This document shows positions 7,053 to 26,850 of a DNA stretch of 64,000 nucleotides, piece by piece. The notes under the pieces were generated by a model that worked only from the letters and a program-made list of their open reading frames with translations, did no database searches and had not been told where the DNA came from. The stretch covers positions 496,001 through 560,000 of the forward strand of contig JACQYI010000009.1 in assembly GCA_016208305.1 (NCBI GenBank). The letters run 5' to 3'. The stretch comes from Oscillatoriophycideae cyanobacterium NC_groundwater_1537_Pr4_S-0.65um_50_18 (GTDB taxonomy: Bacteria; Cyanobacteriota; Cyanobacteriia; Elainellales; Elainellaceae). Position 1 is the stretch's first letter, and each line of letters begins with the position of its first letter. Made by a program: the position numbers and the translations under genes.

Positions 7053-9350
7053 ATGTCTGATGAAACGCTGAATTTGACAGTCGATCTGACAAACTGCGAT
7101 CGCGAACCGATCCACATTCCAGGCTTGGTTCAACCTCATGGAGTGCTGCTCGTTTTGCACAGTTCCACTCTAGAAATTCTTCAGGTCAGCCGCAACACGC
7201 TGGAACTGCTCGATCGCACCGCCGAAGAATTGCTGGGTCAGCCGCTGGCAGGCTTATTGGGTGACGAGCAGGTGAAGCTGATTCAGCGATGTTTGGCAAA
7301 AGATTTTGAGAGCGTTAATCCGCTCAATTTATCGATCGAGCGGCAGCATCAATCCCTCGCGTTTGATGGCATTGTGCATCGCCTGGATGCCTTCATTCTG
7401 CTGGAATTAGAGCCGAATATCATCGAGAGTCACACCAACTTTTTTGACTTTTATCACCAAATGAAAGGCGCGATTACCCGCATTCAAAAAGCGCCAACGC
7501 TGCTGGAAATGTGTCAAGAGGTTGTCGAAGAAGTCCGGCAAATTACGGGCTTCGATCGCGTCATGGTCTATCAGTTTGATGCAGAAGGCTCAGGCAGCGT
7601 CATTGCAGAAGACACCATCCATGAAACGCCTTATTTGGGCTTACGCTATCCGTCTTCCGACATTCCCCAACAGGCTCGACACCTGTATACCCTCAATTGG
7701 CTGCGGCTGATCCCAGATGTCAGCTACCAACCTGTCGCGCTCGCTCCGGTCAACAATCCTGTCACTCAGCAACCGCTTGATCTGAGTTTGTCTGTGCTGC
7801 GCAGTGTGTCTCCCCTGCATCTGGAATATCTGCAAAATATGGGCGTGACTGCTTCCATGTCTATTTCGCTGATACAGGATCAAAAGCTATGGGGATTGAT
7901 TGCCTGCCATCATTCATCTCCCAAGTATATTTCTTACAATATCCGCACAGTTTGCGAGTTTATTGGGCAGGTGATGTCAATAGAACTGGCAAACAAAGCA
8001 GCCAGTGAAGACTCTGACTACAAAGTGCACATAAAAACCTTGCAAACCCAGTTTATTGAGGCGTTATCTCAGACGGAGCATTTTCTGAATGGCATAATGC
8101 AACTGGAAACTGAACTTTTGCAGTTGGTGAATGCAACCGGAGCCGTGCTCTGTAGCGGCAGTCAATGCATCTGCGTAGGTGAAACCCCTGCCGAAGCAGA
8201 CGTTCGTGCCTTGCTCGACTGGATGAAGCCTCACTTTGTTCAAAGCTTATTTGAAACGCGATCGCTCTCCAAAGCCTATCCTGCGGCAGAATCGTTTCAG
8301 GCGATCGCCAGTGGTGTGTTAGCGCTAGAAATTTCCAAAGTCCACCACAACTACATTCTCTGGTTTCGTCCGGAAGTCATTCAAACGGTCAACTGGGGCG
8401 GTAATCCCAACAAACCTGTAGAAGTTTTAGCAGACAACAGTTTGCGGATGTCGCCACGGCGATCGTTTGATTTGTGGCAGGAAACAGTGCGGGCTTCTGC
8501 GCTGCCCTGGAAGCCCTGCGAAATTGCAGCCGTAATTGAACTGCGAAGTTTGCTGGTGGGCGTGGTGTTGCGGCAGGCAGACGAATTGGCGCTGATGAAT
8601 TTTGAATTGCAGCGGAGCAATGAAGAACTCGATTCGTTTGCTTACATTGCCTCCCACGATTTAAAAGAACCGCTGCGGGGCATTCACAACTATGCCAACT
8701 TCTTGATGGAAGATTATGCAACGGAATTGGACAGCAATGGCGTTACAAAGCTGCAAACGATCGTGCGGCTGACGCAGCGCATGGAAGATCTGATCAATTC
8801 GCTGCTCTATTTTTCTCGGTTGGGACGCGCCGAATTAATGCGCCAAACGGTAAACCTCGACGAGTTAGTGCATCAAACAATCGCCACCCTGACGATCGCC
8901 CGACCGCAAGATGAAGTCGAGTTTCGCATTCCTCAACCCTTGCCTGAGATTGAGTGCGATCGCGCTCGCGTGAATGAACTGTTTACCAACTTGATCAGCA
9001 ACGCGATTAAGTACAACAACAAAGCAGAAAAATGGATTGAAATTGGCTACATCCCAGGAGAAGGAGCCGAGGAAATGGCAGGGTCAGGAAGATCCCCCAT
9101 TCTCACATTCCCCACCCTCACATTCTATGTACGCGACAACGGCATTGGCATTCCGCCAGAGCATCTCGACAAGATCTTCCAGATCTTTCGCCGCCTACAT
9201 GGACGAGACGACTTTGGCGGCGGTACAGGGGCAGGGCTAACGATCGCCCGCAAAATTGTAGAGCGACATGGCGGCAAAATTTGGGTAGAATCAGTTCCGG
9301 CTGAAGGCAGCACGTTTTACTTCACCCTGGCAGCAGAGACAGACGCATGA
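7053..9350 (+). CDS. Biliverdin-type phytochrome histidine kinase (CphB/BphP class)
   Basis: Red/far-red photoreceptor kinase of 765 residues: PAS (about 10-110), GAF (about 140-310), PHY (about 320-505), HisKA and HATPase_c. The N-terminal arm has Cys15 in NCDREPIHIPG, the biliverdin attachment site of bacteriophytochromes. The GAF site that is Cys in Cph1-type phytochromes is Leu255-His256 here, so it belongs to the CphB/BphP class. The pigment-contact motif DIP is at 203-205 and the PHY tongue PRRSF at 468-472. The phosphoacceptor is His535 (SHDLKEPL), with an N box NLISNAIKYN and G boxes DNGIGIP and GGGTGAGLTIA. The 3' end overlaps the next gene by 4 bp (ATGA), an Rcp-type response regulator, its expected partner. 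Confidence 0.95.
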   Translation: MSDETLNLTVDLTNCDREPIHIPGLVQPHGVLLVLHSSTLEILQVSRNTLELLDRTAEELLGQPLAGLLGDEQVKLIQRCLAKDFESVNPLNLSIERQHQSLAFDGIVHRLDAFILLELEPNIIESHTNFFDFYHQMKGAITRIQKAPTLLEMCQEVVEEVRQITGFDRVMVYQFDAEGSGSVIAEDTIHETPYLGLRYPSSDIPQQARHLYTLNWLRLIPDVSYQPVALAPVNNPVTQQPLDLSLSVLRSVSPLHLEYLQNMGVTASMSISLIQDQKLWGLIACHHSSPKYISYNIRTVCEFIGQVMSIELANKAASEDSDYKVHIKTLQTQFIEALSQTEHFLNGIMQLETELLQLVNATGAVLCSGSQCICVGETPAEADVRALLDWMKPHFVQSLFETRSLSKAYPAAESFQAIASGVLALEISKVHHNYILWFRPEVIQTVNWGGNPNKPVEVLADNSLRMSPRRSFDLWQETVRASALPWKPCEIAAVIELRSLLVGVVLRQADELALMNFELQRSNEELDSFAYIASHDLKEPLRGIHNYANFLMEDYATELDSNGVTKLQTIVRLTQRMEDLINSLLYFSRLGRAELMRQTVNLDELVHQTIATLTIARPQDEVEFRIPQPLPEIECDRARVNELFTNLISNAIKYNNKAEKWIEIGYIPGEGAEEMAGSGRSPILTFPTLTFYVRDNGIGIPPEHLDKIFQIFRRLHGRDDFGGGTGAGLTIARKIVERHGGKIWVESVPAEGSTFYFTLAAETDA

Positions 9351-9796
9351 CAGCCAAAACCGCCCCCCTGTTAATTGTGGAAGACAGCAACGAAGACTTT
9401 GAGGTGCTGCAGCGATTTTTGCACCAATCGCCCACTCCAATTTCCATTCAGCGCTGCATCAGCGGCGAACAGGCACTTGCGTTTCTAAGTTGCACTGGCG
9501 ACTATATAGGTCAGAGTGCCCCTCGCCCTAGTCTGATTGTGCTGGATCTGAATTTGCCAGGAACCGATGGACGAGAAGTGTTGCGCCAAATCAAACAAGA
9601 CGACAACCTGAAAAAAATTCCGGTTGTCGTGTTCACTACGTCTAACAATCCAAAAGATATTGCAGACTGCTATCGATATGGAGTGAACAGCTACATCATT
9701 AAGCCGATTAACTTTGCTCAACTTAAGCGAGATGTGCAAATGCTGGTTGATTACTGGTTTGAAGTAACTACGCTCCCCGATCGATTTGAAGATTAA
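9347..9796 (+). CDS. Phytochrome-partner response regulator (Rcp1-like)
   Basis: 149-residue single-domain CheY-like receiver with the slightly long Rcp form. Acidic pocket ED in LLIVEDSNED, phosphoacceptor Asp67 in VLDLNLPG, conserved Thr in FTTS, and Lys in IIKPIN. Members of the Rcp family take phosphate from cyanobacterial phytochromes. The ATGA overlap with the phytochrome gene supports stoichiometric co-translation and direct pairing. There is no output domain, so signalling continues through protein contacts or a phosphorelay. Confidence 0.94.
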   Translation: MTAKTAPLLIVEDSNEDFEVLQRFLHQSPTPISIQRCISGEQALAFLSCTGDYIGQSAPRPSLIVLDLNLPGTDGREVLRQIKQDDNLKKIPVVVFTTSNNPKDIADCYRYGVNSYIIKPINFAQLKRDVQMLVDYWFEVTTLPDRFED

Positions 9797-9799
9797 ATT

Positions 9800-12700
9800 A
9801 TGACTGTGATTTCGCGCACGATTCTCATTATCGATGACTCGCCGGAAGATCGAGAACTCTATCGGCGTTATTTACTGCGCGATCCCGACTATGACTACAC
9901 CATTCTGGAAGCATCGCTAGGGCAGCAAGGGCTAGAGTTCTGGCAGCACAGGCAGCCGGATGCTGTGCTGCTCGATTATCGCTTGCCCGACTTAGACGGA
10001 CTGGAGTTTCTGGCGCAACTGCACTCCCCAACCTCCTCATCCAGCCTACCCGTCATTGTTGTCACCGGGCAGGGAAATGAAGCGATCGCGGTACAGGCGA
10101 TCAAAGCAGGCGCGCAAGATTATCTGGTGAAAGGCGCGATCACGCCGGAATCACTGCACTTGGCCGTCAATGGCGCGATCGCCACCGTGCAGCTCCAGAC
10201 CCAACTGCAACAGCGGATCGATCGCGAACGATTAGTTTTACAAATTACGCAGAAGATCTGTCAATCTCTGGATCTAGAGGAAATTCTGCAAATGACTGTC
10301 GATGAGGTGCGGCAGTTTCTCCAGACCGATCGCGTGTTGATTTTTCAGCTACAACCCGATGGCAACGGCACTGTGGTTGCCGAATCTGTCGGAGCAGAGT
10401 GGCGATCGCTGTTGGACTTGTCCATACATGATCCCTGCCTGGCCGAAAACTACCTTCGCTTTAGCCGACCCGAATCGGTGACTCACGATGTCGCCTTTGC
10501 CGAGGAGTACGTCAAACGCTATCGCCAGGGAAATGTGACGGCAATCGAAGATATTCACGCCAGTAATATCGACCCATGCCATGTCGAACTGTTGGCTCAG
10601 TTTCAAGTGCAGGCAAACCTGGTAGTGCCGATTTTGCACGACAACCATTTTTGGGGCTTGCTGATTGCCCATCACTGTGCGGCACCGCGATCGTGGCAAA
10701 CCCTAGAAATTGACCTGCTCAAAGAATTGGCCATTCAGGTCAGCATTGCCCTGAGACAGGCAGAACTCTATCGTCAGGCACAAGATGAATTGGCGGAACG
10801 CACCCAGGTTGAAGCGGAACTGCGAGAGAGCGAAGAACGCCTGCGGTTGGCGCTGCAAGCCTCGCGGATGGGCACCTGGGACTGGAACATCCAGACTGGA
10901 GCAATTACCTGGTCTGATAACCTGGAAGCTCTGTTTGGGCTAGAACCCGGCGGATTTGACGGCTCCTTTGAGCTGTTTAGCTCCTTCTTGCACCCGGACG
11001 ATCGGGAGCGAGTGCTGGCTGCGATCGATCAAGCCATCACGACTGGAGCAGACTACAATCTTGAATTTCGGGCAGTGAATCCGCAGGGCGGGGTGCGCTG
11101 GGCCTTGACGCAGGGCAAGGTCTTTTATGATCCAAACGGGCAACCCGTGCGGATGGCAGGGATTGATCTTGATATCACCGAACGTAAACGAGACATGGAA
11201 GCGCTGCAAGAGAGTGAAGCCCGCTTCCGCCAGCTTGCCGAAAACATTAATGCGGTCTTCTGGCTCAAAGAGGTGCTTGCCAATCGAGTCTCCTACGTTA
11301 GCCCTGCCTATGAGCGCCTATGGGAGCTGAACCCACAAGCCCTGTATGCCGATCAACAAACCTGGGTCGATTATATTCATCCCGACGATCGCGAATGGGT
11401 TGGAAACGCGTTTGCAGCTAAGGCCGAGGCGGGGCAATTTGATGAAGAGTACCGAATTGTTTTAGCCGACGGTCGCATTTGCTGGGTGCATGATCGGTGT
11501 TTTCCCTTGCGAAATGAGGCCGGGAAGATTTATCGGTTTGCTGGGATTGCTGAAGACATTACCGATCGCAAACAGACCGAGCAAATTTTGCAAGAAAGTG
11601 AAACCCGCTTTCGCACCTCGGTTGAAAATATGCTGGACTGCTTTGGCATTTATTCAGCGGTGCGGAACCAACAGGGGCAAATTACCGATTTTCGGACGGA
11701 GTATGTCAACGATGCCGCCTGTTTCAGCAATCATCTAACGCGGGAACAGCAGCTAGGGCGGGGACTTTGTGAGCTCTTGCCGGGACATATTGAAAGTGGT
11801 TTATTTGATGAATATTGCCAGGTGGTAGAAACGGGACAGTCGCTCGTCAAAGACAGTCTGGTTTATGAAGATGAATACGGCCAACAGCGCTTAACTCGCG
11901 CCTTTGATATCCGCGTGGCTAAATTTGGCGACGGCTATGTCGCCACCTGGCGCGATATTACCGATCGCAAACAGACCGAAGCCGCCCTGCGCCAATCGGA
12001 GGAACGCTATCGGACGCTGTTTGAGTCAATGGAAGATGGGTTTTGCGTCATTGAAGTGATATTTGATGCGCAACAAACGCCGATCGATTATCGCTTTTTG
12101 GAAGCGAACCCGGCGTTTGAACACCAAGCGGGACTGACCCAGGCAGTCGGTCAAACAGCCCGTCAACTGCTGCCTAATATAGAAGCTCATTGGTTTGAAA
12201 TCTATGGCAACGTCGTGCTAACGGGCGAGTCCACTCGCTTTGAGAATAGCTCTGATGCCCTGAATCGTTGGTTCGACGTATATGCCTTTCGGGTTGGGCA
12301 GCCAGAAGAACGCAAAGTTGCCATCCTGTTCAAGGATATTAGCGCTCGCAAGCGGGCAGAACAAACCTTGCAGGAGAGTGAAGCCCGCTTGAGTTTGGCG
12401 CATAAGGCAACGCGCTCAGGTCTGTGGGATTGGGACATGATCCACAATAAGGCACAGGTATCGGAAGAGTACTGTCAACTGTTTGGGCTTGACCCAGCCA
12501 CCCAGGAAGTTAGCTATGACCAATGGATAAACTGGTTGCACCCGGACGATCGGGCTACTGTCACCGAAGTTGTGAGTCGTACCATTCAGCAGCGACAAGA
12601 CTACTATGAAGCAGATTACCGAATTCTGCATCCAGAGGGCGATCGCTGGATTGCCTCTAAGGGTCAAGTGTTTTACAACGCAGCAGGCGATGCAGTGCGA

Positions 12701-13921
12701 ATGCTGGGCAACGTGCAGGACATCACCGATCGCAAGCAGGCAGAAGCCGAACGTGAGCGATTGTTGCAACTAGAGCAAGCCGCCAGAGCTGAAGCCGAAC
12801 GCGCCAATCGCGTCAAAGATGAATTTCTGGCAGTTCTCTCGCATGAGTTGCGATCGCCCCTCAACCCGATCTTGGGATGGGCAAAACTGATGCAAAGCCG
12901 AAAATTTGATGCGGCTAGAACATCTGAAGCTTTGGCAACCATTGAACGCAATGCCAAATTGCAGTGTCAGCTGATTGATGACCTGCTAGATACAGCAACG
13001 ATCCTTCGCGGCAAGCTCAGTATGAATGTTGCTCCCGTCGATCTGGCGTTTGTGATTGAGTCAGCGATCGAGACCGTTAGAACCGCCGCCGTTGCCAAAT
13101 CAATTTTGCTTCATTCAGTGCTGCCTCAGATTGGAAAAGTGTTGGGCGATTCAAGGCGGCTCCAGCAAATTGTTTGGAATCTACTGTCTAACGCAATCAA
13201 ATTCACTCCGAGTCATAGACGGGTAGACATTCGGTTAGAGCGCAGCGACAACCAAGCACAAATAACAGTCAGCGATACGGGCAAAGGCATTAATCCCGAC
13301 TTCCTGCCGCATATCTTCGACTCCTTTCGCCAGGAAGATGCTTCAACAACGCGTAAGTATGGCGGCTTGGGGTTAGGGTTGGCGATCGTTTATCAGTTGG
13401 TTGAGGCACATGGTGGCACGATCGCTGCTGATAGCCAGGGTGAAGGGCAAGGCTCAACATTTATCGTTCGGCTGCCTTTGCTAGAGGCCGAGCCAGAAGC
13501 GAGCCAGTTAAATGAATCATCCGCATCAGAACCCGATCTAACGGGCATTCAGGTTCTCATTGTGGATGATGAATTGGATACGCGTGAACTGCTCACAGCC
13601 GTATTGACTCAATATGGCGCAGAGGTTTTGGCTGCTGCCTCGGCTGCTGAAGGGCTAACCTGCCTGGCGTCGTTTCACCCCAATGTGCTAATCAGTGACA
13701 TTGGTATGCCCGAAATGGACGGCTACACTTTTCTACAGCAGGTGCGCGCTCTACCCTTTGACCAAGGAGGGCAGGTGCCCGCGATCGCGTTGACTGCGTA
13801 TGCCAGAGAAGGTGATCGCCAGCGAATCATCGCTCATGGTTTTCAACAGCATATTACAAAGCCTTTTGACCTAGAACAGTTGGTTCGAGCGGTAATAGCA
13901 CTCACAAAAAACGAAAGTTAA
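9800..13921 (+). CDS. Hybrid sensor kinase REC-GAF(CBCR-like)-5xPAS-HisKA-HATPase-REC
   Basis: 1373-residue multi-sensor kinase 3 bp after the Rcp gene. Order: N-terminal receiver (Asp59 in LLDYRLPD), GAF (about 147-330), five PAS/PAC repeats (about 345-455, 470-590, 600-720, 730-850 and 860-985, most ending in DITDRK-type PAC tails), dimerisation/phosphoacceptor His1015 (SHELRSPLNP), HATPase (NLLSNAIKFT, GGLGLGLAIV) and C-terminal receiver (Asp1300 in ISDIGMPEMDG). The GAF carries Cys260-His261 (DPCHVELL), the canonical bilin-binding dyad of cyanobacteriochromes, and D211-P-C213-L214, close to the DXCF second-cysteine motif. It is therefore probably photosensory, although many related GAFs are not. 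Its kinase core is a close paralogue of the one ending at 23894. Confidence 0.93.
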   Translation: MTVISRTILIIDDSPEDRELYRRYLLRDPDYDYTILEASLGQQGLEFWQHRQPDAVLLDYRLPDLDGLEFLAQLHSPTSSSSLPVIVVTGQGNEAIAVQAIKAGAQDYLVKGAITPESLHLAVNGAIATVQLQTQLQQRIDRERLVLQITQKICQSLDLEEILQMTVDEVRQFLQTDRVLIFQLQPDGNGTVVAESVGAEWRSLLDLSIHDPCLAENYLRFSRPESVTHDVAFAEEYVKRYRQGNVTAIEDIHASNIDPCHVELLAQFQVQANLVVPILHDNHFWGLLIAHHCAAPRSWQTLEIDLLKELAIQVSIALRQAELYRQAQDELAERTQVEAELRESEERLRLALQASRMGTWDWNIQTGAITWSDNLEALFGLEPGGFDGSFELFSSFLHPDDRERVLAAIDQAITTGADYNLEFRAVNPQGGVRWALTQGKVFYDPNGQPVRMAGIDLDITERKRDMEALQESEARFRQLAENINAVFWLKEVLANRVSYVSPAYERLWELNPQALYADQQTWVDYIHPDDREWVGNAFAAKAEAGQFDEEYRIVLADGRICWVHDRCFPLRNEAGKIYRFAGIAEDITDRKQTEQILQESETRFRTSVENMLDCFGIYSAVRNQQGQITDFRTEYVNDAACFSNHLTREQQLGRGLCELLPGHIESGLFDEYCQVVETGQSLVKDSLVYEDEYGQQRLTRAFDIRVAKFGDGYVATWRDITDRKQTEAALRQSEERYRTLFESMEDGFCVIEVIFDAQQTPIDYRFLEANPAFEHQAGLTQAVGQTARQLLPNIEAHWFEIYGNVVLTGESTRFENSSDALNRWFDVYAFRVGQPEERKVAILFKDISARKRAEQTLQESEARLSLAHKATRSGLWDWDMIHNKAQVSEEYCQLFGLDPATQEVSYDQWINWLHPDDRATVTEVVSRTIQQRQDYYEADYRILHPEGDRWIASKGQVFYNAAGDAVRMLGNVQDITDRKQAEAERERLLQLEQAARAEAERANRVKDEFLAVLSHELRSPLNPILGWAKLMQSRKFDAARTSEALATIERNAKLQCQLIDDLLDTATILRGKLSMNVAPVDLAFVIESAIETVRTAAVAKSILLHSVLPQIGKVLGDSRRLQQIVWNLLSNAIKFTPSHRRVDIRLERSDNQAQITVSDTGKGINPDFLPHIFDSFRQEDASTTRKYGGLGLGLAIVYQLVEAHGGTIAADSQGEGQGSTFIVRLPLLEAEPEASQLNESSASEPDLTGIQVLIVDDELDTRELLTAVLTQYGAEVLAAASAAEGLTCLASFHPNVLISDIGMPEMDGYTFLQQVRALPFDQGGQVPAIALTAYAREGDRQRIIAHGFQQHITKPFDLEQLVRAVIALTKNES

Positions 13922-21107: not shown

Positions 21108-23894
21108 ATGACTAAGGCAAGCAAGGTAAAGACCGAGGCAGCCCATTGTCTTGCAGGGGGTGGAGAGATGGGAGCTTTAATGCGCAATTTCGATTGGTCA
21201 TTAACTCCCTTAGGCGTTGCCAATCAGTGGTCGGAAAGCTTGAAAATCTCGGTAAGCTTATGTTTGCAAGCGCGTTTTCCGATCGTCATCTACTGGGGAA
21301 AAGACTTAACGCTGCTCTATAACGATGCCTGGAAGCCTTTTTTGGGAGCGAAAAAACATCCCTACGCTTTGGGGCGACCCTGCCGAGAAATCTGGGCTGA
21401 GATTTGGGATGTGGTAGGGGGTCAGTTAGAACAAGTCATGGCCACAGGGCAAGCGATCGGGGGAGATGATCTTCAGCTCTTGATCGATCGCGATGACAAG
21501 CTAGAGGAAACCTACTTTACCTATTCCTACAGTCCCATTTTGGAAGCTGGAGAAGTTGGCGGTATCCTAAATGTCGTTACGGAAACGACGCACCGGGTCT
21601 TGAACGAGCGGCGCATGCAAACCCTGCATCGTTTAGCAAGTCAGGTCAGGCAGGTTAAGACGATCGATCAAGCGGCAGAATGCGTCATGCAAACGCTGGC
21701 TCAAAATACAGCAGATATTCCCTTTGCTTTGCTCTATTTGATCACGCCTGACGGCACACAGGCCAAGCTTTGCAAAAGCGCCCCGCTAGAGATCGACCTT
21801 TGCTCCTGCCGGACTGATTTAGCCCCAGTTGATTTAGCCACAATTGATTTAGCTCCCGGCGCAAGACAGACAGATTATGGGTCGTTGGCCTCACTGATTC
21901 AATCTAAACAGGCAGCCGTCCTGCAAGACTTAACTCAGCATTGGGAAACAGTGCCGTCAGGCCAATGGCCTATTCAGCCACAACAGGCATTGGTGTTGCC
22001 CCTACGAGGAGGACAAGAGTCGCTAGTTGGGTTTTTAGTATTTGGTATCAATCCTTATCGTCCGCTTGACCCTGACTATCGCACTTTCTTTGACATGATT
22101 GCCGAGGATGTCTCTACGGCGCTGAGTAACGCTGCCACGGCTGAAGACGATCGCCAACGAACTGCGGCGATCGCCCAAGTCGAGCGAACCTTGAAGCTGT
22201 CTCAGGTCATGTCTCAGGCTAAGCAACCGGGCTTACACTTTACCCCATCTGCCTGCACCCCATCTGTCCGTACCGAAGTTGAGGCTCTGGCGTTGGCATT
22301 GGTCTCTGAGCGCGATCGCTTGCGGCTAGAAGTTGCAGAGCGGGAACAAACCGAGGCCAAGCTTCAGCGCTACAAAGATCTGTTTGAGCATGCCGGACAG
22401 GGACTCGTCATCGGTCATGCAGACAACGAAACCCTGGGGTTAATGAACGCTGCCTTTGCCCGCATGCATGGCTATAGGATTGAAGAACTAGTCGGGCGAT
22501 CGATCTTGACTCTGTTTCCAAGCGACTGCCATGAGCAAATTCAAGCTGCCATTCGGCTGGCGAATGCGATGGGTCACTATGCCGTTGAGTCCAAGCATGT
22601 GCGGAAAGACGGCACAGTTTTCTCGGTCTGGATTGACATGACCGCTGTCAAAGATCCTCAGGGACAAGTGCGCTATCGGATTGTCAGCGTTCAGGATATT
22701 ACGGCGCTTAAACAAGCAGAAGTAGAACGAGAGAAGCTTTTGACGCTAGAGCAGACAGCCCGCCAAGCTGCCGAAACCGCCAATCAAATCAGAGATCAAT
22801 TCCTCGCAGTGCTTTCTCATGAGCTAAGAACGCCGCTCAACCCAATTCTAGGCTGGGCAAAGCTGCTAAAAAGCGGATTGCTGGATGCCACAAAAACCCA
22901 AATTGCCTTAGCCACGATCGAACGGAATGCCCAAATACAGGCTCAGTTAATCGAAGATTTGCTGGATATTGCCCGCATTCTTGAGGGTAAATTGGCGCTC
23001 GCCATCGACTCAGTTGATCTGAGATTTGTCGTCTCTGCGGCACAAGAAACCGTTCGCTTAGCAGCAGATGCGAAACACATTGAGCTAAGGACGATATTAG
23101 AACCTAACGTTAGCGTTCTAGGCGATGTCACGCGGCTCCAGCAGGTCGTCTGGAATCTGCTCTCGAATGCGGTTAAGTTTACGCCTCAGGGGGGGCAGGT
23201 AGAAGTCCGAGTGGCTCAAGTTCAGGATCAGGCACAGATCCAAGTGCGAGATACGGGTAAAGGTATCTGCCCTGAATTTTTGCCCTATGTGTTCGATCGC
23301 TTTCGTCAAGCAGATGGTGCAACCACTCGCCAGTTTGGTGGGTTAGGGCTAGGGTTGGCGATCGTGCGTCAAATCGTAGAGCTGCATGGGGGTACGGTCA
23401 GCGCCGATAGCCTGGGTGAAGGACAGGGATCGACCTTCACGGTCACATTGCCAGCCACAGCCAGCCAAGCCAGTTTGTCTGCTGCCGCGATCGCATCTTC
23501 AGATCTAAGAGGAGTCACGGCTTTAGTCGTAGATGATGAGGCAGATTCCCGCGAGCTTGTGGTCTGCGTATTGCAACAATCGGGAGCCACCACCCTAAGC
23601 GCCTGCTCAGCCAGCGAAGCGCTACAGACGCTGAGGCAGCAAAAGCCAGATCTCTTGATTAGCGATATTGGTATGCCTGAAACAGATGGCTACATGCTGA
23701 TCCGCCAAGTGCGATCGCTGCCCCCTGAGCAGGGTGGGCAAATTCCGGCGATTGCCGTTACGGCCTATGCCACGGATACCGACCGACAACTTATTCTTCA
23801 GGCAGGTTTTCAGCGCCATGTCACAAAGCCCATTGACCCCATCCCTTTCACGGCAATCGTGGCTAGTCTCGTTAAATTAACTCAGTTTAATTAA
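21108..23894 (+). CDS. Hybrid histidine kinase PAS-GAF-PAS-HisKA-HATPase-REC
   Basis: 928-residue sensor kinase. The N-terminal PAS-like domain (about 20-165; DWSLTPLG, IYWGKDLTLLYNDAW) is of a type frequent in cyanobacterial kinases. It is followed by a GAF (about 170-345) without the CH bilin dyad, a coiled linker, a PAS/PAC (about 420-545), the phosphoacceptor His571 (SHELRTPLNP), an ATPase domain (NLLSNAVKFT, GGLGLGLAIV) and a C-terminal receiver (SDIGMPETDG). The kinase core closely resembles that of the 1373-residue kinase, indicating duplication. A short DNA repeat (GATTTAGC-type, three copies near 21825-21870) expands a GAF loop. It lies 70 bp before the Cph2-type kinase gene. Confidence 0.93.
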   Translation: MTKASKVKTEAAHCLAGGGEMGALMRNFDWSLTPLGVANQWSESLKISVSLCLQARFPIVIYWGKDLTLLYNDAWKPFLGAKKHPYALGRPCREIWAEIWDVVGGQLEQVMATGQAIGGDDLQLLIDRDDKLEETYFTYSYSPILEAGEVGGILNVVTETTHRVLNERRMQTLHRLASQVRQVKTIDQAAECVMQTLAQNTADIPFALLYLITPDGTQAKLCKSAPLEIDLCSCRTDLAPVDLATIDLAPGARQTDYGSLASLIQSKQAAVLQDLTQHWETVPSGQWPIQPQQALVLPLRGGQESLVGFLVFGINPYRPLDPDYRTFFDMIAEDVSTALSNAATAEDDRQRTAAIAQVERTLKLSQVMSQAKQPGLHFTPSACTPSVRTEVEALALALVSERDRLRLEVAEREQTEAKLQRYKDLFEHAGQGLVIGHADNETLGLMNAAFARMHGYRIEELVGRSILTLFPSDCHEQIQAAIRLANAMGHYAVESKHVRKDGTVFSVWIDMTAVKDPQGQVRYRIVSVQDITALKQAEVEREKLLTLEQTARQAAETANQIRDQFLAVLSHELRTPLNPILGWAKLLKSGLLDATKTQIALATIERNAQIQAQLIEDLLDIARILEGKLALAIDSVDLRFVVSAAQETVRLAADAKHIELRTILEPNVSVLGDVTRLQQVVWNLLSNAVKFTPQGGQVEVRVAQVQDQAQIQVRDTGKGICPEFLPYVFDRFRQADGATTRQFGGLGLGLAIVRQIVELHGGTVSADSLGEGQGSTFTVTLPATASQASLSAAAIASSDLRGVTALVVDDEADSRELVVCVLQQSGATTLSACSASEALQTLRQQKPDLLISDIGMPETDGYMLIRQVRSLPPEQGGQIPAIAVTAYATDTDRQLILQAGFQRHVTKPIDPIPFTAIVASLVKLTQFN

Positions 23895-23964: not shown

Positions 23965-26055
23965 ATGTTTAACGACAAATCCCTATCCGATCGCAAGGCT
24001 GCCCTCCTGGCTCGTATGACCAATCACATCCGGCAGTCGCTAGATCTTCAGGAAATTCTAGACGCAACCGTAAACGAACTCCGAGCCTTCTTGCAGACCG
24101 ATCGCACCAAAGTCTATCGCTTTGACCCAGACGGGCATGGGCAGGTGGTTGCAGAATCGAGCGCTAAAGATCGTTTGCCCTCGTTGCTGGGGCTACATTA
24201 CCCTGCTGAAGATATTCCGCTCCAAGCCAGAGCGCTCTTTGTCAAAGCGCGAACTCGGTCGATCGTTAATGTGAGTCAGCAGCAGATTATTCTCAACTCG
24301 CTGTCCACGCCTCCCCCAACCCTCGACGCTTTGACAGTAGAGGAAGTGCTGCAACAGCCGATCGAAGAGATTATCAGCCGTCCGGTTGACCCTTGTCATG
24401 TGGAATACCTAACGCAAATGGGGGTACAGTCGTCGCTAGTGGTGCCCATTTTGCATCAGCAAGAACTCTGGGGGCTGCTCATCTCCCATCATGCTGAACC
24501 CAGAGAGATTGACACAGAGGATCTAAAGGTTGTCCAAGTCTTGGCAGATCAGGTTTCTCTGGCGATCGCCCATTCAGCGTTACTGAGTCAGGCACAGGAG
24601 CGATCGCAGCGGGAAACCATTATTAATCAGATGACGGCGCTGCTCCACATGCCTCGGCGCCCCGAAGAAATCTTGACGACCGTTTTAGAACAGGCAATCA
24701 AGGCCACAAGCAGTTCTGGAGGCAGGCTGTACCTCACCTCAACCGATGGCACAATGCCCACCTATCTCTATACCTATGGTAAGCAGCCATACCAATCTGA
24801 GCTAAAACCCTCACTGCTAGAAAATCACCCGGTTTGGCAAGCAACCCAGAAAGCCTCAACGGCTCAGCCCGATGCTCCCACTCCCCCCAAGGCTGAAGCA
24901 ACTTCAGATAATCCGGCCTTGCGCGTCGTGGTTGATCTGGAGCAAGAGCCAAGGCTGCACAAGCTGATTGAGCAATTTACTTCAATTCGCGGTCTGATGA
25001 TTCAACCCCTCTGCTATGGGGATCAGTTTTTAGGATATTTGACCTTCTTTCGCGATCAGATTGACACAGAAAGTCTGTGGGCAGGTTATGAAGCAACGGA
25101 CGAACGCCAACAGCGCCCCCGCGAATCAATGGGAAAATGGCAGGCACTCAAGCGCAACCAGGCGCAGCCCTGGAGCCTAGAAGAAGTTGAACTGATTCAG
25201 GCGCTTAATGTTCATCTCTCTTTGGCGATCGTGCAGGATCGGCTCTACCAAAGAGAGCAGCAGCAGCGTTTGATTTTAGAGATGCACAATCAAACGCTTT
25301 CTCAAGCACGCGCCACGGCTGAAGAAGTGGGTCGGCTGAAGAGTAATTTTCTCACTTCTACCAATCATGAATTGCGAACGCCTCTGGCTTCTACGTTGAA
25401 CTACCTGAAACTGCTAAAAGATAGGCTGTATGAAAATGAAGAAGAACTGCGCGAATACATTGAAGGCGCTTATCAAGCCACAGAATCGCTCGTTACCATC
25501 ATCAACAATGTGCTAGATATCGCCAAGATTGAAGAAGGTCAAATGAACGTAGAGCAGGAGATAGTCCTGCTGCCACGGCTCCTGCAAGAGCAGTGTTTCT
25601 TCGCCAATGCGCAAAGCCGTCTTGAAGGAATTTCGCTGGTGCTGCACTGCGAAGTAAACCAGGTTTTTGCCGACGCAGCTAAAATGCGTCAGGTAATGAA
25701 CAACTTGCTGGATAACGCCTTCAAATTTACGCATCAGGGGCAGGTGACGGTGAGGGCGATCGCAGATAGTACAGGCACAAAGGCAGAGATCTCCGTCAGC
25801 GATACGGGTATCGGCGTCGCGGCAGACAGCATAGAGCGATTGTTTGATCCGTTCGTGCAAGCCGATGGGTCAATTCAACGAAATTATGGCGGCACGGGCT
25901 TAGGGCTAAACATTTGTAAAAGGTTAGTAGAACTGATGGGAGGACAAATTTGGCTAGCAAGCCTTGGGCTTGACCAAGGAACGACCGTCACCTTTACGCT
26001 GCCGCTGAGCCAGCCAGACACAAGCCCATTAGACGGCTCGCTAGATGGGGATTAA
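23965..26055 (+). CDS. Knotless (Cph2-type) phytochrome histidine kinase
   Basis: 696-residue photoreceptor kinase lacking the N-terminal PAS/knot. GAF1 (about 15-210) carries the pigment-contact motif D83-I-P and the bilin-attachment Cys144-His145 in DPCHVEYL. The second GAF (about 225-410) contains a phytochrome-like tongue: LWAG, then PRESMGKW at 385-392 and PWSLEE, matching the PRxSF..W pattern of PHY domains with Met for Phe. Then come a coiled linker, His468 (NHELRTPL), ATPase boxes (NLLDNAFKFT, DTGIGV) and GGTGLGLNI. GAF-GAF(PHY-like)-kinase is the group II phytochrome plan. No receiver is fused, but two receiver genes follow after 5 and 407 bp, suggesting an operon. Confidence 0.92.
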   Translation: MFNDKSLSDRKAALLARMTNHIRQSLDLQEILDATVNELRAFLQTDRTKVYRFDPDGHGQVVAESSAKDRLPSLLGLHYPAEDIPLQARALFVKARTRSIVNVSQQQIILNSLSTPPPTLDALTVEEVLQQPIEEIISRPVDPCHVEYLTQMGVQSSLVVPILHQQELWGLLISHHAEPREIDTEDLKVVQVLADQVSLAIAHSALLSQAQERSQRETIINQMTALLHMPRRPEEILTTVLEQAIKATSSSGGRLYLTSTDGTMPTYLYTYGKQPYQSELKPSLLENHPVWQATQKASTAQPDAPTPPKAEATSDNPALRVVVDLEQEPRLHKLIEQFTSIRGLMIQPLCYGDQFLGYLTFFRDQIDTESLWAGYEATDERQQRPRESMGKWQALKRNQAQPWSLEEVELIQALNVHLSLAIVQDRLYQREQQQRLILEMHNQTLSQARATAEEVGRLKSNFLTSTNHELRTPLASTLNYLKLLKDRLYENEEELREYIEGAYQATESLVTIINNVLDIAKIEEGQMNVEQEIVLLPRLLQEQCFFANAQSRLEGISLVLHCEVNQVFADAAKMRQVMNNLLDNAFKFTHQGQVTVRAIADSTGTKAEISVSDTGIGVAADSIERLFDPFVQADGSIQRNYGGTGLGLNICKRLVELMGGQIWLASLGLDQGTTVTFTLPLSQPDTSPLDGSLDGD

Positions 26056-26060
26056 CGACC

Positions 26061-26453
26061 TTGAATATTCTGCTGGTAGAAGATGATTACCATCTGGCGC
26101 GGGGAACAGCAAAACTCATTGAACGACTCGGAGGACATCAGGTATTTATCACCACAGAGCCAGAAGAAATCTTTCATCAATGTGAGAGTGGAGCTGTGGA
26201 ACTCGTGCTCATGGACATTAACTTACCAGGTGTGAAATGGCAGGGACAGAAAGTAGATGGTACTAGCCTCTCGCGTCAGCTCAAAGATCGCTGGCATCAC
26301 ATTCCTATTATTGTAATTACGGCTTACACCATGCCCATCGAGCAACACACGTTGCTACAGCAATCTCAAGCCGACTGTTGCTATACCAAACCCATTACAG
26401 ACTATCCAGCGCTACTTGAAATGATCACTCAACTCAGTCAAAGGAGAAGCTGA
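26061..26453 (+). CDS. Single-domain response regulator (first of a pair)
   Basis: 130-residue CheY-like receiver starting at a TTG codon 5 bp after the phytochrome stop, the only in-frame start that preserves the first beta strand (NILLVEDD). Acidic pocket E7-D8-D9, phosphoacceptor Asp52 in LMDINLPG, Thr in ITAYT, Lys in YTKPI. An insertion after the phosphosite (KWQGQKVDGTSLS) is longer than usual. No output domain. Tight spacing suggests translational coupling to the kinase. Confidence 0.92.
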   Translation: MNILLVEDDYHLARGTAKLIERLGGHQVFITTEPEEIFHQCESGAVELVLMDINLPGVKWQGQKVDGTSLSRQLKDRWHHIPIIVITAYTMPIEQHTLLQQSQADCCYTKPITDYPALLEMITQLSQRRS

Positions 26454-26457
26454 GTCT

Positions 26458-26850
26458 ATGTATAAACTTGCAATACTAGATGATGACCCCAACTGGTGCC
26501 TGATTGCTCAACGTTTTTTACAGAAAAACTATGAAGTCGTAGTCTATAAATCAGTCTCTAGTTTTTTGTATGCTTTTGACGAACTTAGCCAGTACCATCT
26601 TTTGCTAATTGACTTTGTAATCCCAAGTGCCCGACATGAGATTAATGTTGATGGCATTGAAATCATTTCTCGTCTTAAGCGTCTGCCCCAGCCTCCCAGC
26701 GTTATCCTCGTCACGGCTTACATGAGTAGATATGACTTAGAGGTCAATGGCAAAAAGATGTGCCCACAGGCAGATGGTTTTTTTGCTAAAGATGCAGGGC
26801 TTGAGCTACTCAATCAACAAATTAGCCAATTGCTCAGAGACGCTCAGTAA
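26458..26850 (+). CDS. Single-domain response regulator (second of a pair)
   Basis: 130-residue receiver 4 bp after the previous gene. Acidic pocket D8-D9-D10 in AILDDDP, phosphoacceptor Asp52 in LLIDFVIPSA, Thr in LVTAYM, and Lys in FFAKDAG. The loop after the phosphosite again has an insertion (HEINVDG), so the two receivers are diverged tandem paralogues. It lacks an output domain. Probably the terminal gene of the operon; composition downstream becomes AT-rich. Confidence 0.9.
   Translation: MYKLAILDDDPNWCLIAQRFLQKNYEVVVYKSVSSFLYAFDELSQYHLLLIDFVIPSARHEINVDGIEIISRLKRLPQPPSVILVTAYMSRYDLEVNGKKMCPQADGFFAKDAGLELLNQQISQLLRDAQ

Follow-up and report, generated by a model that had tools for sequence, protein, structure and literature searches.

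Tandem duplication and complementary loss in the DXCF segment of a cyanobacteriochrome GAF domain, with a candidate second bilin ligand in an unusual position

Can a cyanobacteriochrome (CBCR) still hold its bilin by two bonds when the motif carrying the second cysteine is found away from its usual place? The question is raised by a hybrid kinase of 1373 residues, encoded at 9800..13921 on the plus strand of a stretch of 64,000 nucleotides (hereafter the window, the whole stretch of DNA that was analysed) from Oscillatoriophycideae cyanobacterium NC_groundwater_1537_Pr4_S-0.65um_50_18 (contig JACQYI010000009.1, positions 496,001 to 560,000). A sequence-only reading had taken the GAF domain of this kinase for a DXCF-like CBCR GAF with a single Phe-to-Leu change in its Asp-Xaa-Cys-Phe (DXCF) motif. 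Translation of the gene places the residues on which that reading relied, D211, C213, C260 and H261, where it had them, and its assignment to the CBCR GAFs is borne out by the Cys-His pair, the fold matches and the descent described below. The DXCF register itself, however, carries D-V-A-F, and D-P-C-L belongs to an upstream, duplicated copy of the segment, with the Phe persisting in the downstream copy (F233). Neither the half-motif D230-V-A232-F233 nor the duplication of 19 residues had been noticed.

Spacing of the motif and origin of the extra residues

The GAF domain (residues 137-337 as used for searches, 10208..10810; Pfam GAF match 158-318) contains the canonical bilin-binding pair C260-H261 (10577..10582), and C260 is 47 residues downstream of C213 (10436..10438). 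For TePixJ, the part of PMC6955287 consulted gives C494 as second and C522 as canonical cysteine, a separation of 28 residues with which the TePixJ sequence agrees. Counting 28 residues back from C260 leads to A232, within D230-V-A232-F233, with D-P-C-L a further 19 residues upstream; the window GAF has no Asp-Xaa-Cys-Phe 28 residues before its canonical Cys. Among 66 distinct best GAFs, one per locus compared, 39 have extra residues together with the upstream motif (that of copy 1, below) or its remains, and 17 have D-x-C at a spacing of 28. The remaining 10 are without D-x-C at that spacing, one of them, L085, having the insert without the motif. In 34 of these 39, hereafter the insert rows, precisely 19 residues are added, which gives a spacing of 47.

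MAFFT opened the alignment gap after D-P-C, and the gap can be placed on either side of the Cys. Because of this ambiguity a test for duplication was undertaken, using the 34 insert rows with a spacing of 47 and the 17 unduplicated rows. When the D-x-C region of the 34 rows was compared with the remainder of the domain at each offset, +19 scored highest (1.39; mean of the other offsets -1.08, standard deviation 0.45), the second-best offset, +47 (0.69), corresponding to the canonical D-P-C-H site and not to a repeat. With the four motif columns removed, +19 remained on top (0.93, next 0.31). In each of the 34 rows the two best-scoring places for a profile of the DXCF segment, built from the 17 unduplicated rows, were the two copies, copy 2 leading in 33 and copy 1 in one. 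Identity between the copies averages 5.85 of 19 residues versus 1.04 by permutation, a value as high being reached in 0 of 20,000 permutations (control on every fourth insert row). At the DNA level, in-frame identity peaks at 57 bases (0.488 versus a mean of 0.261, standard deviation 0.05).

These comparisons identify the additional 19 residues as the product of a tandem duplication of the DXCF segment. Copy 1 comprises H210-T228 (10427..10483) with D211-P-C213-L214 and reads HDPCLAENYLRFSRPESVT; copy 2 comprises H229-T247 (10484..10540) with D230-V-A232-F233 at the canonical 28-residue register and reads HDVAFAEEYVKRYRQGNVT; the unduplicated relative L118 has YDPCFAESYVDRYREGTVT. On average, copy 1 matches five unduplicated relatives at 7.3 of 19 residues and copy 2 at 10.5. 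An unrelated chance insertion was also considered, and is ruled out by the 19-residue offset, the permutations and the DNA comparison. No report of this DXCF duplication was found in open-access titles and abstract openings, a coverage that leaves out most of the subscription literature and does not establish absence from print.

An AlphaFold2 model of the window GAF (76 alignment rows, mean pLDDT 82.5, pTM 0.80) shows a strand at residues 72-74 of the model, a helix at 76-83 in copy 1, a second helix at 98-106 in copy 2 and a strand at 111-113, while that of L118 (41 rows, pLDDT 90.4) connects the equivalent strands by one helix, 76-87. Both copies are thus predicted to be helical where L118 has a single helix, in a model that does not discriminate which copy lines the pocket. 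Its fold matches those of solved CBCR GAFs, PDB entries 6oaq (Z 25.3, root mean square deviation 1.6 over 171 residues) and 4glq (Z 21.6, 2.1 over 149). VIA-align, run with trimming of low-confidence residues, placed all 149 residues of 4glq onto model residues 19-186, a number that we do not interpret because the trimmed residues are unspecified.

A single clade with complementary half-motifs

The alignment used for phylogeny took in 76 of the 120 distinct GAF stretches and excluded L085, which is also absent from the tree and from the count of 39. When the tree was built with the insert columns removed, the 39 insert rows fell on one side of one branch (99/96), which is present in all 200 bootstrap trees counted, and their nearest relatives are L077 and L118 (81/83), each with a single DPCF. 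A quick tree of 74 rows, with 7 PDB GAFs added and 15 of the 39 insert rows included, again kept the insert rows together (94), within a group mostly of DPCF type (91). There they were separate from the branch of AnPixJg2, NpR6012g4 and Slr1393g3 and from TePixJ, and they grouped with CBCR GAFs, away from a knotless-type outgroup row. By these trees the insert rows have a single origin and are a distinct clade among the rows sampled, and the descent of the window GAF is within the DPCF-bearing group. Its sequence gives good support for a CBCR GAF that binds bilin.

Within this clade each copy is conserved in a different half of the motif. Position 213 has Cys in all insert rows but one (38 of 39; codon TGC in 30, TGT in 8), the exception having Phe. 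At 214, Leu occurs in 38 rows and Gln in the remaining one, and Phe does not occur there. Cys is absent from position 232 (Ala 30, Thr 6, Glu 2, Asn 1), and residue 233 is Phe in 32 rows (Leu 4, Cys 2, Ser 1). Over the 39 rows copy 1 thus keeps D in 39 and P, C and L in 38 each, and copy 2 keeps D in 35, A in 30 and F in 32, with C260 and H261 invariant throughout. According to the alignment, the copies have lost complementary halves, copy 1 keeping Asp and Cys (D211-P-C213-L) and copy 2 keeping Asp and Phe (D230-x-A232-F233). The insert has drifted in some relatives: L116 reads D-P-C-Q, L114 and L034 have respectively a shortened and a longer insert, and copy 2 is eroded in L082. The genome of the window carries a second split-motif GAF on another contig (L002, G000:C84:49720-50319), 79% identical and with a further CBCR-like GAF nearby.

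A putative second bilin ligand and the alternatives

With the DXCF CBCRs (TePixJ GAF; PDB 4glq, 4fof, 3vv4, 6p58) the window GAF shares the GAF fold, the canonical Cys-His and an Asp-Xaa-Cys after the equivalent strand, as well as its descent from a DPCF-type group. It differs from them in that the motif is duplicated and split, with C213 at 47 instead of 28 residues and Ala at the register of the DXCF Cys. The best match both by sequence and by fold (6oaq) is the GAF of a dual sensor histidine kinase (PDB 6oap, 6oaq, 6ob8), which nevertheless has D-Q-Y-F, without a second Cys or an insert, and stands in another branch. In the insert-Cys CBCRs (NpF2164g3, NpR1597g2, Mbr3854g4, Mbl3738g2), as presented in the part of PMC5240096 consulted, the second bond is formed by an insertion Cys that precedes, by 16 or 28 residues, a DXCF register devoid of Cys. 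The window GAF likewise has a Cys in an insertion upstream of that register, C213 being 19 residues before A232. Unlike those proteins, however, it has no CXXR/K after the insertion Cys but C213-L-A-E, and reads D-V-A-F and not DTYL at the register. Its own insert is a duplicate of the DXCF segment. The same part of that paper groups the insert-Cys CBCRs with AnPixJg2, whereas the window clade stands apart from AnPixJg2 in the quick tree, a tree without insert-Cys sequences.

From the sequence comparisons it is most likely that C213 still forms a second, photolabile bilin bond, with a geometry like that of the insert-Cys proteins and a separate origin, since a Cys in a duplicated segment has been kept in 38 of 39 rows with little other reason to be there. 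C260 would anchor the bilin. C213, sitting on a short helix that leads into a flexible loop, would add to C10 of the bilin to give a blue- or violet-absorbing state, and F233, on the second helix, would retain the packing role of the DXCF Phe, a residue among those named for trapped-twist geometry in the part of PMC5240096 consulted. Light would make or break the C213 bond, and the change would pass via the PAS domains to the kinase and receivers, whose signalling would run beside that of the co-encoded phytochrome and regulator. The protein would thus work like an insert-Cys CBCR, with the insertion derived from the DXCF segment itself and in another lineage. A two-thioether photocycle of the window GAF is plausible; for the whole account, i.e. 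a duplicated split-motif clade with bilin on C260, C213 as photolabile second ligand and a light-gated kinase, we see the chances as evenly balanced.

Several observations weigh against this account. Counted from C260, the residue at the pocket register is A232 and not C213, and residues 80-100 of the GAF model have pLDDT values below 50. The insert-Cys proteins have Leu at the position of the DXCF Phe (PMC5240096, same part), unlike the window GAF. Locus L109 has Phe at residue 213 (D-P-F-L). L085:1501-2136, the fourteenth insert-bearing row of the profile search, has neither the copy 1 motif nor C260-H261, both losses making it likely that it binds no bilin at the usual place; it is a third paralogue in a genome that also carries L032 and L082. 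Finally, the conservation of copy 1 is partly built into the loci found by pattern scan of genome contigs, since one of the two patterns used, [YH]DPCLA[EKQ]N and FWGLLIAH, contains D-P-C-L-A. The counts were therefore repeated on the 13 motif-bearing rows of a profile search, which covered 388 genomes, 10 of them yielding these rows. D-P-C-L and Cys-His are present in 13 of 13, and copy 2 has D in 12, Ala at 232 in 11 and Phe at 233 in 11. Five of the 13, all DPCL, had been used to build the profile, so that only eight were new to it.

The position of A232 would be expected if copy 2 (D230, A232, F233), at the canonical 28-residue register, lined the pocket, with the helix of copy 1 looped out, the bilin held by C260 alone, switching without a second thioether and C213 serving a structural or redox role. 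The greater likeness of copy 2 to unduplicated rows (10.5 versus 7.3 of 19) and the first rank that it takes with the DXCF profile in 33 of the 34 rows also speak for such a single-Cys sensor. Moreover, AM1_6305g1 is cited, in the part of PMC11284453 consulted, as making phycoviolobilin without its second Cys, so that a photosensor could still function after losing that bond. Set against this is the better preservation of D-P-C-L in copy 1 than of D-x-A-F in copy 2, in the 39 rows, where the pattern favours copy 1, as well as in the 13 profile-found rows (13 at each of four positions versus 12, 11 and 11). On balance we regard the single-Cys sensor as the main alternative, serious but rather unlikely.

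The invariance of C260-H261 in 39 rows and the open frames in many genera are difficult to reconcile with a GAF that no longer senses light, its pocket damaged by the duplication and the domain surviving as a structural or dimerising relic. The drift in L082, L034, L109 and L116 and the losses in L085 would fit such a relic, which nonetheless appears improbable to us. An ordinary DXCF sensor tuned in colour by one Phe-to-Leu change, as the sequence-only reading had it, could appeal to unduplicated L036 and L055, where D-P-C-L occurs without the insert and Leu is tolerated. As a description of the anatomy it is contradicted by the spacing of 47 instead of 28 and by the second, D-x-A-F copy, and we give it very little credence.

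The kinase gene, its operon and what the split motif may mean

Pfam finds in the kinase two receiver stretches, one GAF, HisKA and HATPase_c. The N-terminal receiver (Response_reg, residues 8-123, 9821..10168) precedes the GAF, which is followed by five PAS segments (10811..12742 in total) delimited by five D-[IVL]-[ST]-x-R-K caps: 10811-11194, 11195-11578, 11579-11977, 11978-12358 and 12359-12742. Searched singly, segments 1, 2, 4 and 5 exceed the Pfam cut-off and segment 3 falls narrowly below it (PAS_4, 22.2 bits versus 23.1). HisKA (residues 1006-1068, SHELR from 1014) and HATPase_c (1116-1227) span 12815..13480, and the C-terminal receiver, the second Response_reg stretch, has approximate limits 13550..13903 (DDELDT at residue 1256, SDIGMPEM at 1299). 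Five PAS domains with a receiver at either end had been read from the sequence beforehand, and this architecture holds. The genome has 76 stretches matching the kinase GAF, some being halves of one domain.

The kinase had also been placed beside a phytochrome operon, and in fact belongs to it. The gene of a phytochrome kinase of 765 residues (7053..9350, plus strand) overlaps by 4 bases that of a single-receiver response regulator (9347..9796, plus strand), and the kinase frame starts 3 bases after the latter; on account of this overlap and this gap we assign the kinase the third place in a phytochrome-regulator-kinase operon. The unduplicated L118 has the identical gene order, so the operon may be older than the duplication. 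Phytochrome and regulator genes lie upstream in 13 of 34 insert loci from the pattern scan; among the 28 loci with 3 kb or more of DNA upstream, the figure is 12. In 9 of these 13 the regulator is within 76 bases of the kinase frame, and L119 has another kinase gene between. The remaining insert loci are without phytochrome or regulator genes or are cut by contig ends; the arrangement is common but not general.

The co-encoded phytochrome (PAS_2, GAF, PHY, HisKA and HATPase_c in Pfam) shares the N-terminal NCDREP with FiDCB (PDB 9jry), its own sequence being NCDREPIHIPG, but lacks the GAF cysteine, with SPLHLEYL replacing the SPCHxEYL form (SPCHIEYL in FiDCB). The GAF-Cys site is Leu or Ile in all 11 insert-locus phytochromes read and Val in L118; 9 of these 11 phytochromes, as well as that of L118, show the N-terminal Cys motif. 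Absence of the GAF Cys and presence of the N-terminal one is the pattern of biliverdin-binding CphB-type phytochromes, and on this pattern the operon probably joins a red/far-red sensor with one of shorter wavelength. It differs from a CphB-type phytochrome with its regulator by the split-motif kinase added as third gene. At L090:2863-5140 (Phormidesmis priestleyi ULC007) the phytochrome gene is read as two overlapping frames, owing to a frameshift or a sequencing error. Elsewhere in the window (23965-26850), a kinase of 696 residues with RPVDPCHVEYL in its GAF and a weak PHY match is followed by single-receiver genes at 26061-26453 and 26458-26850, a light-sensor kinase that looks like a knotless phytochrome; a hybrid kinase (GAF, PAS, HisKA, HATPase_c, receiver) directly precedes this cluster at 21108-23894.

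Within its four residues the DXCF motif combines two roles: its Cys forms and releases a bond to the pigment, and its Phe packs close by. A clade in which these roles stand 19 residues apart provides a natural experiment on the contribution of each to colour, and it offers a traceable route, duplication followed by complementary loss, to a new second-cysteine position. We tentatively propose, at somewhat less than even confidence, that the duplication split DXCF into half-motifs, a C10-reactive Cys on a mobile helix-loop and a Phe clamp, and so produced a further dual-Cys architecture which may show how insert-Cys proteins arise in general. If true, that general route would be duplication of the DXCF segment, after which the cysteine is kept in the insertion. 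If C213 works as a ligand, a probable short-wavelength CBCR kinase would be coupled to a biliverdin-type phytochrome in one operon, and the split motif suggests a new route to a light sensor with two bonds.

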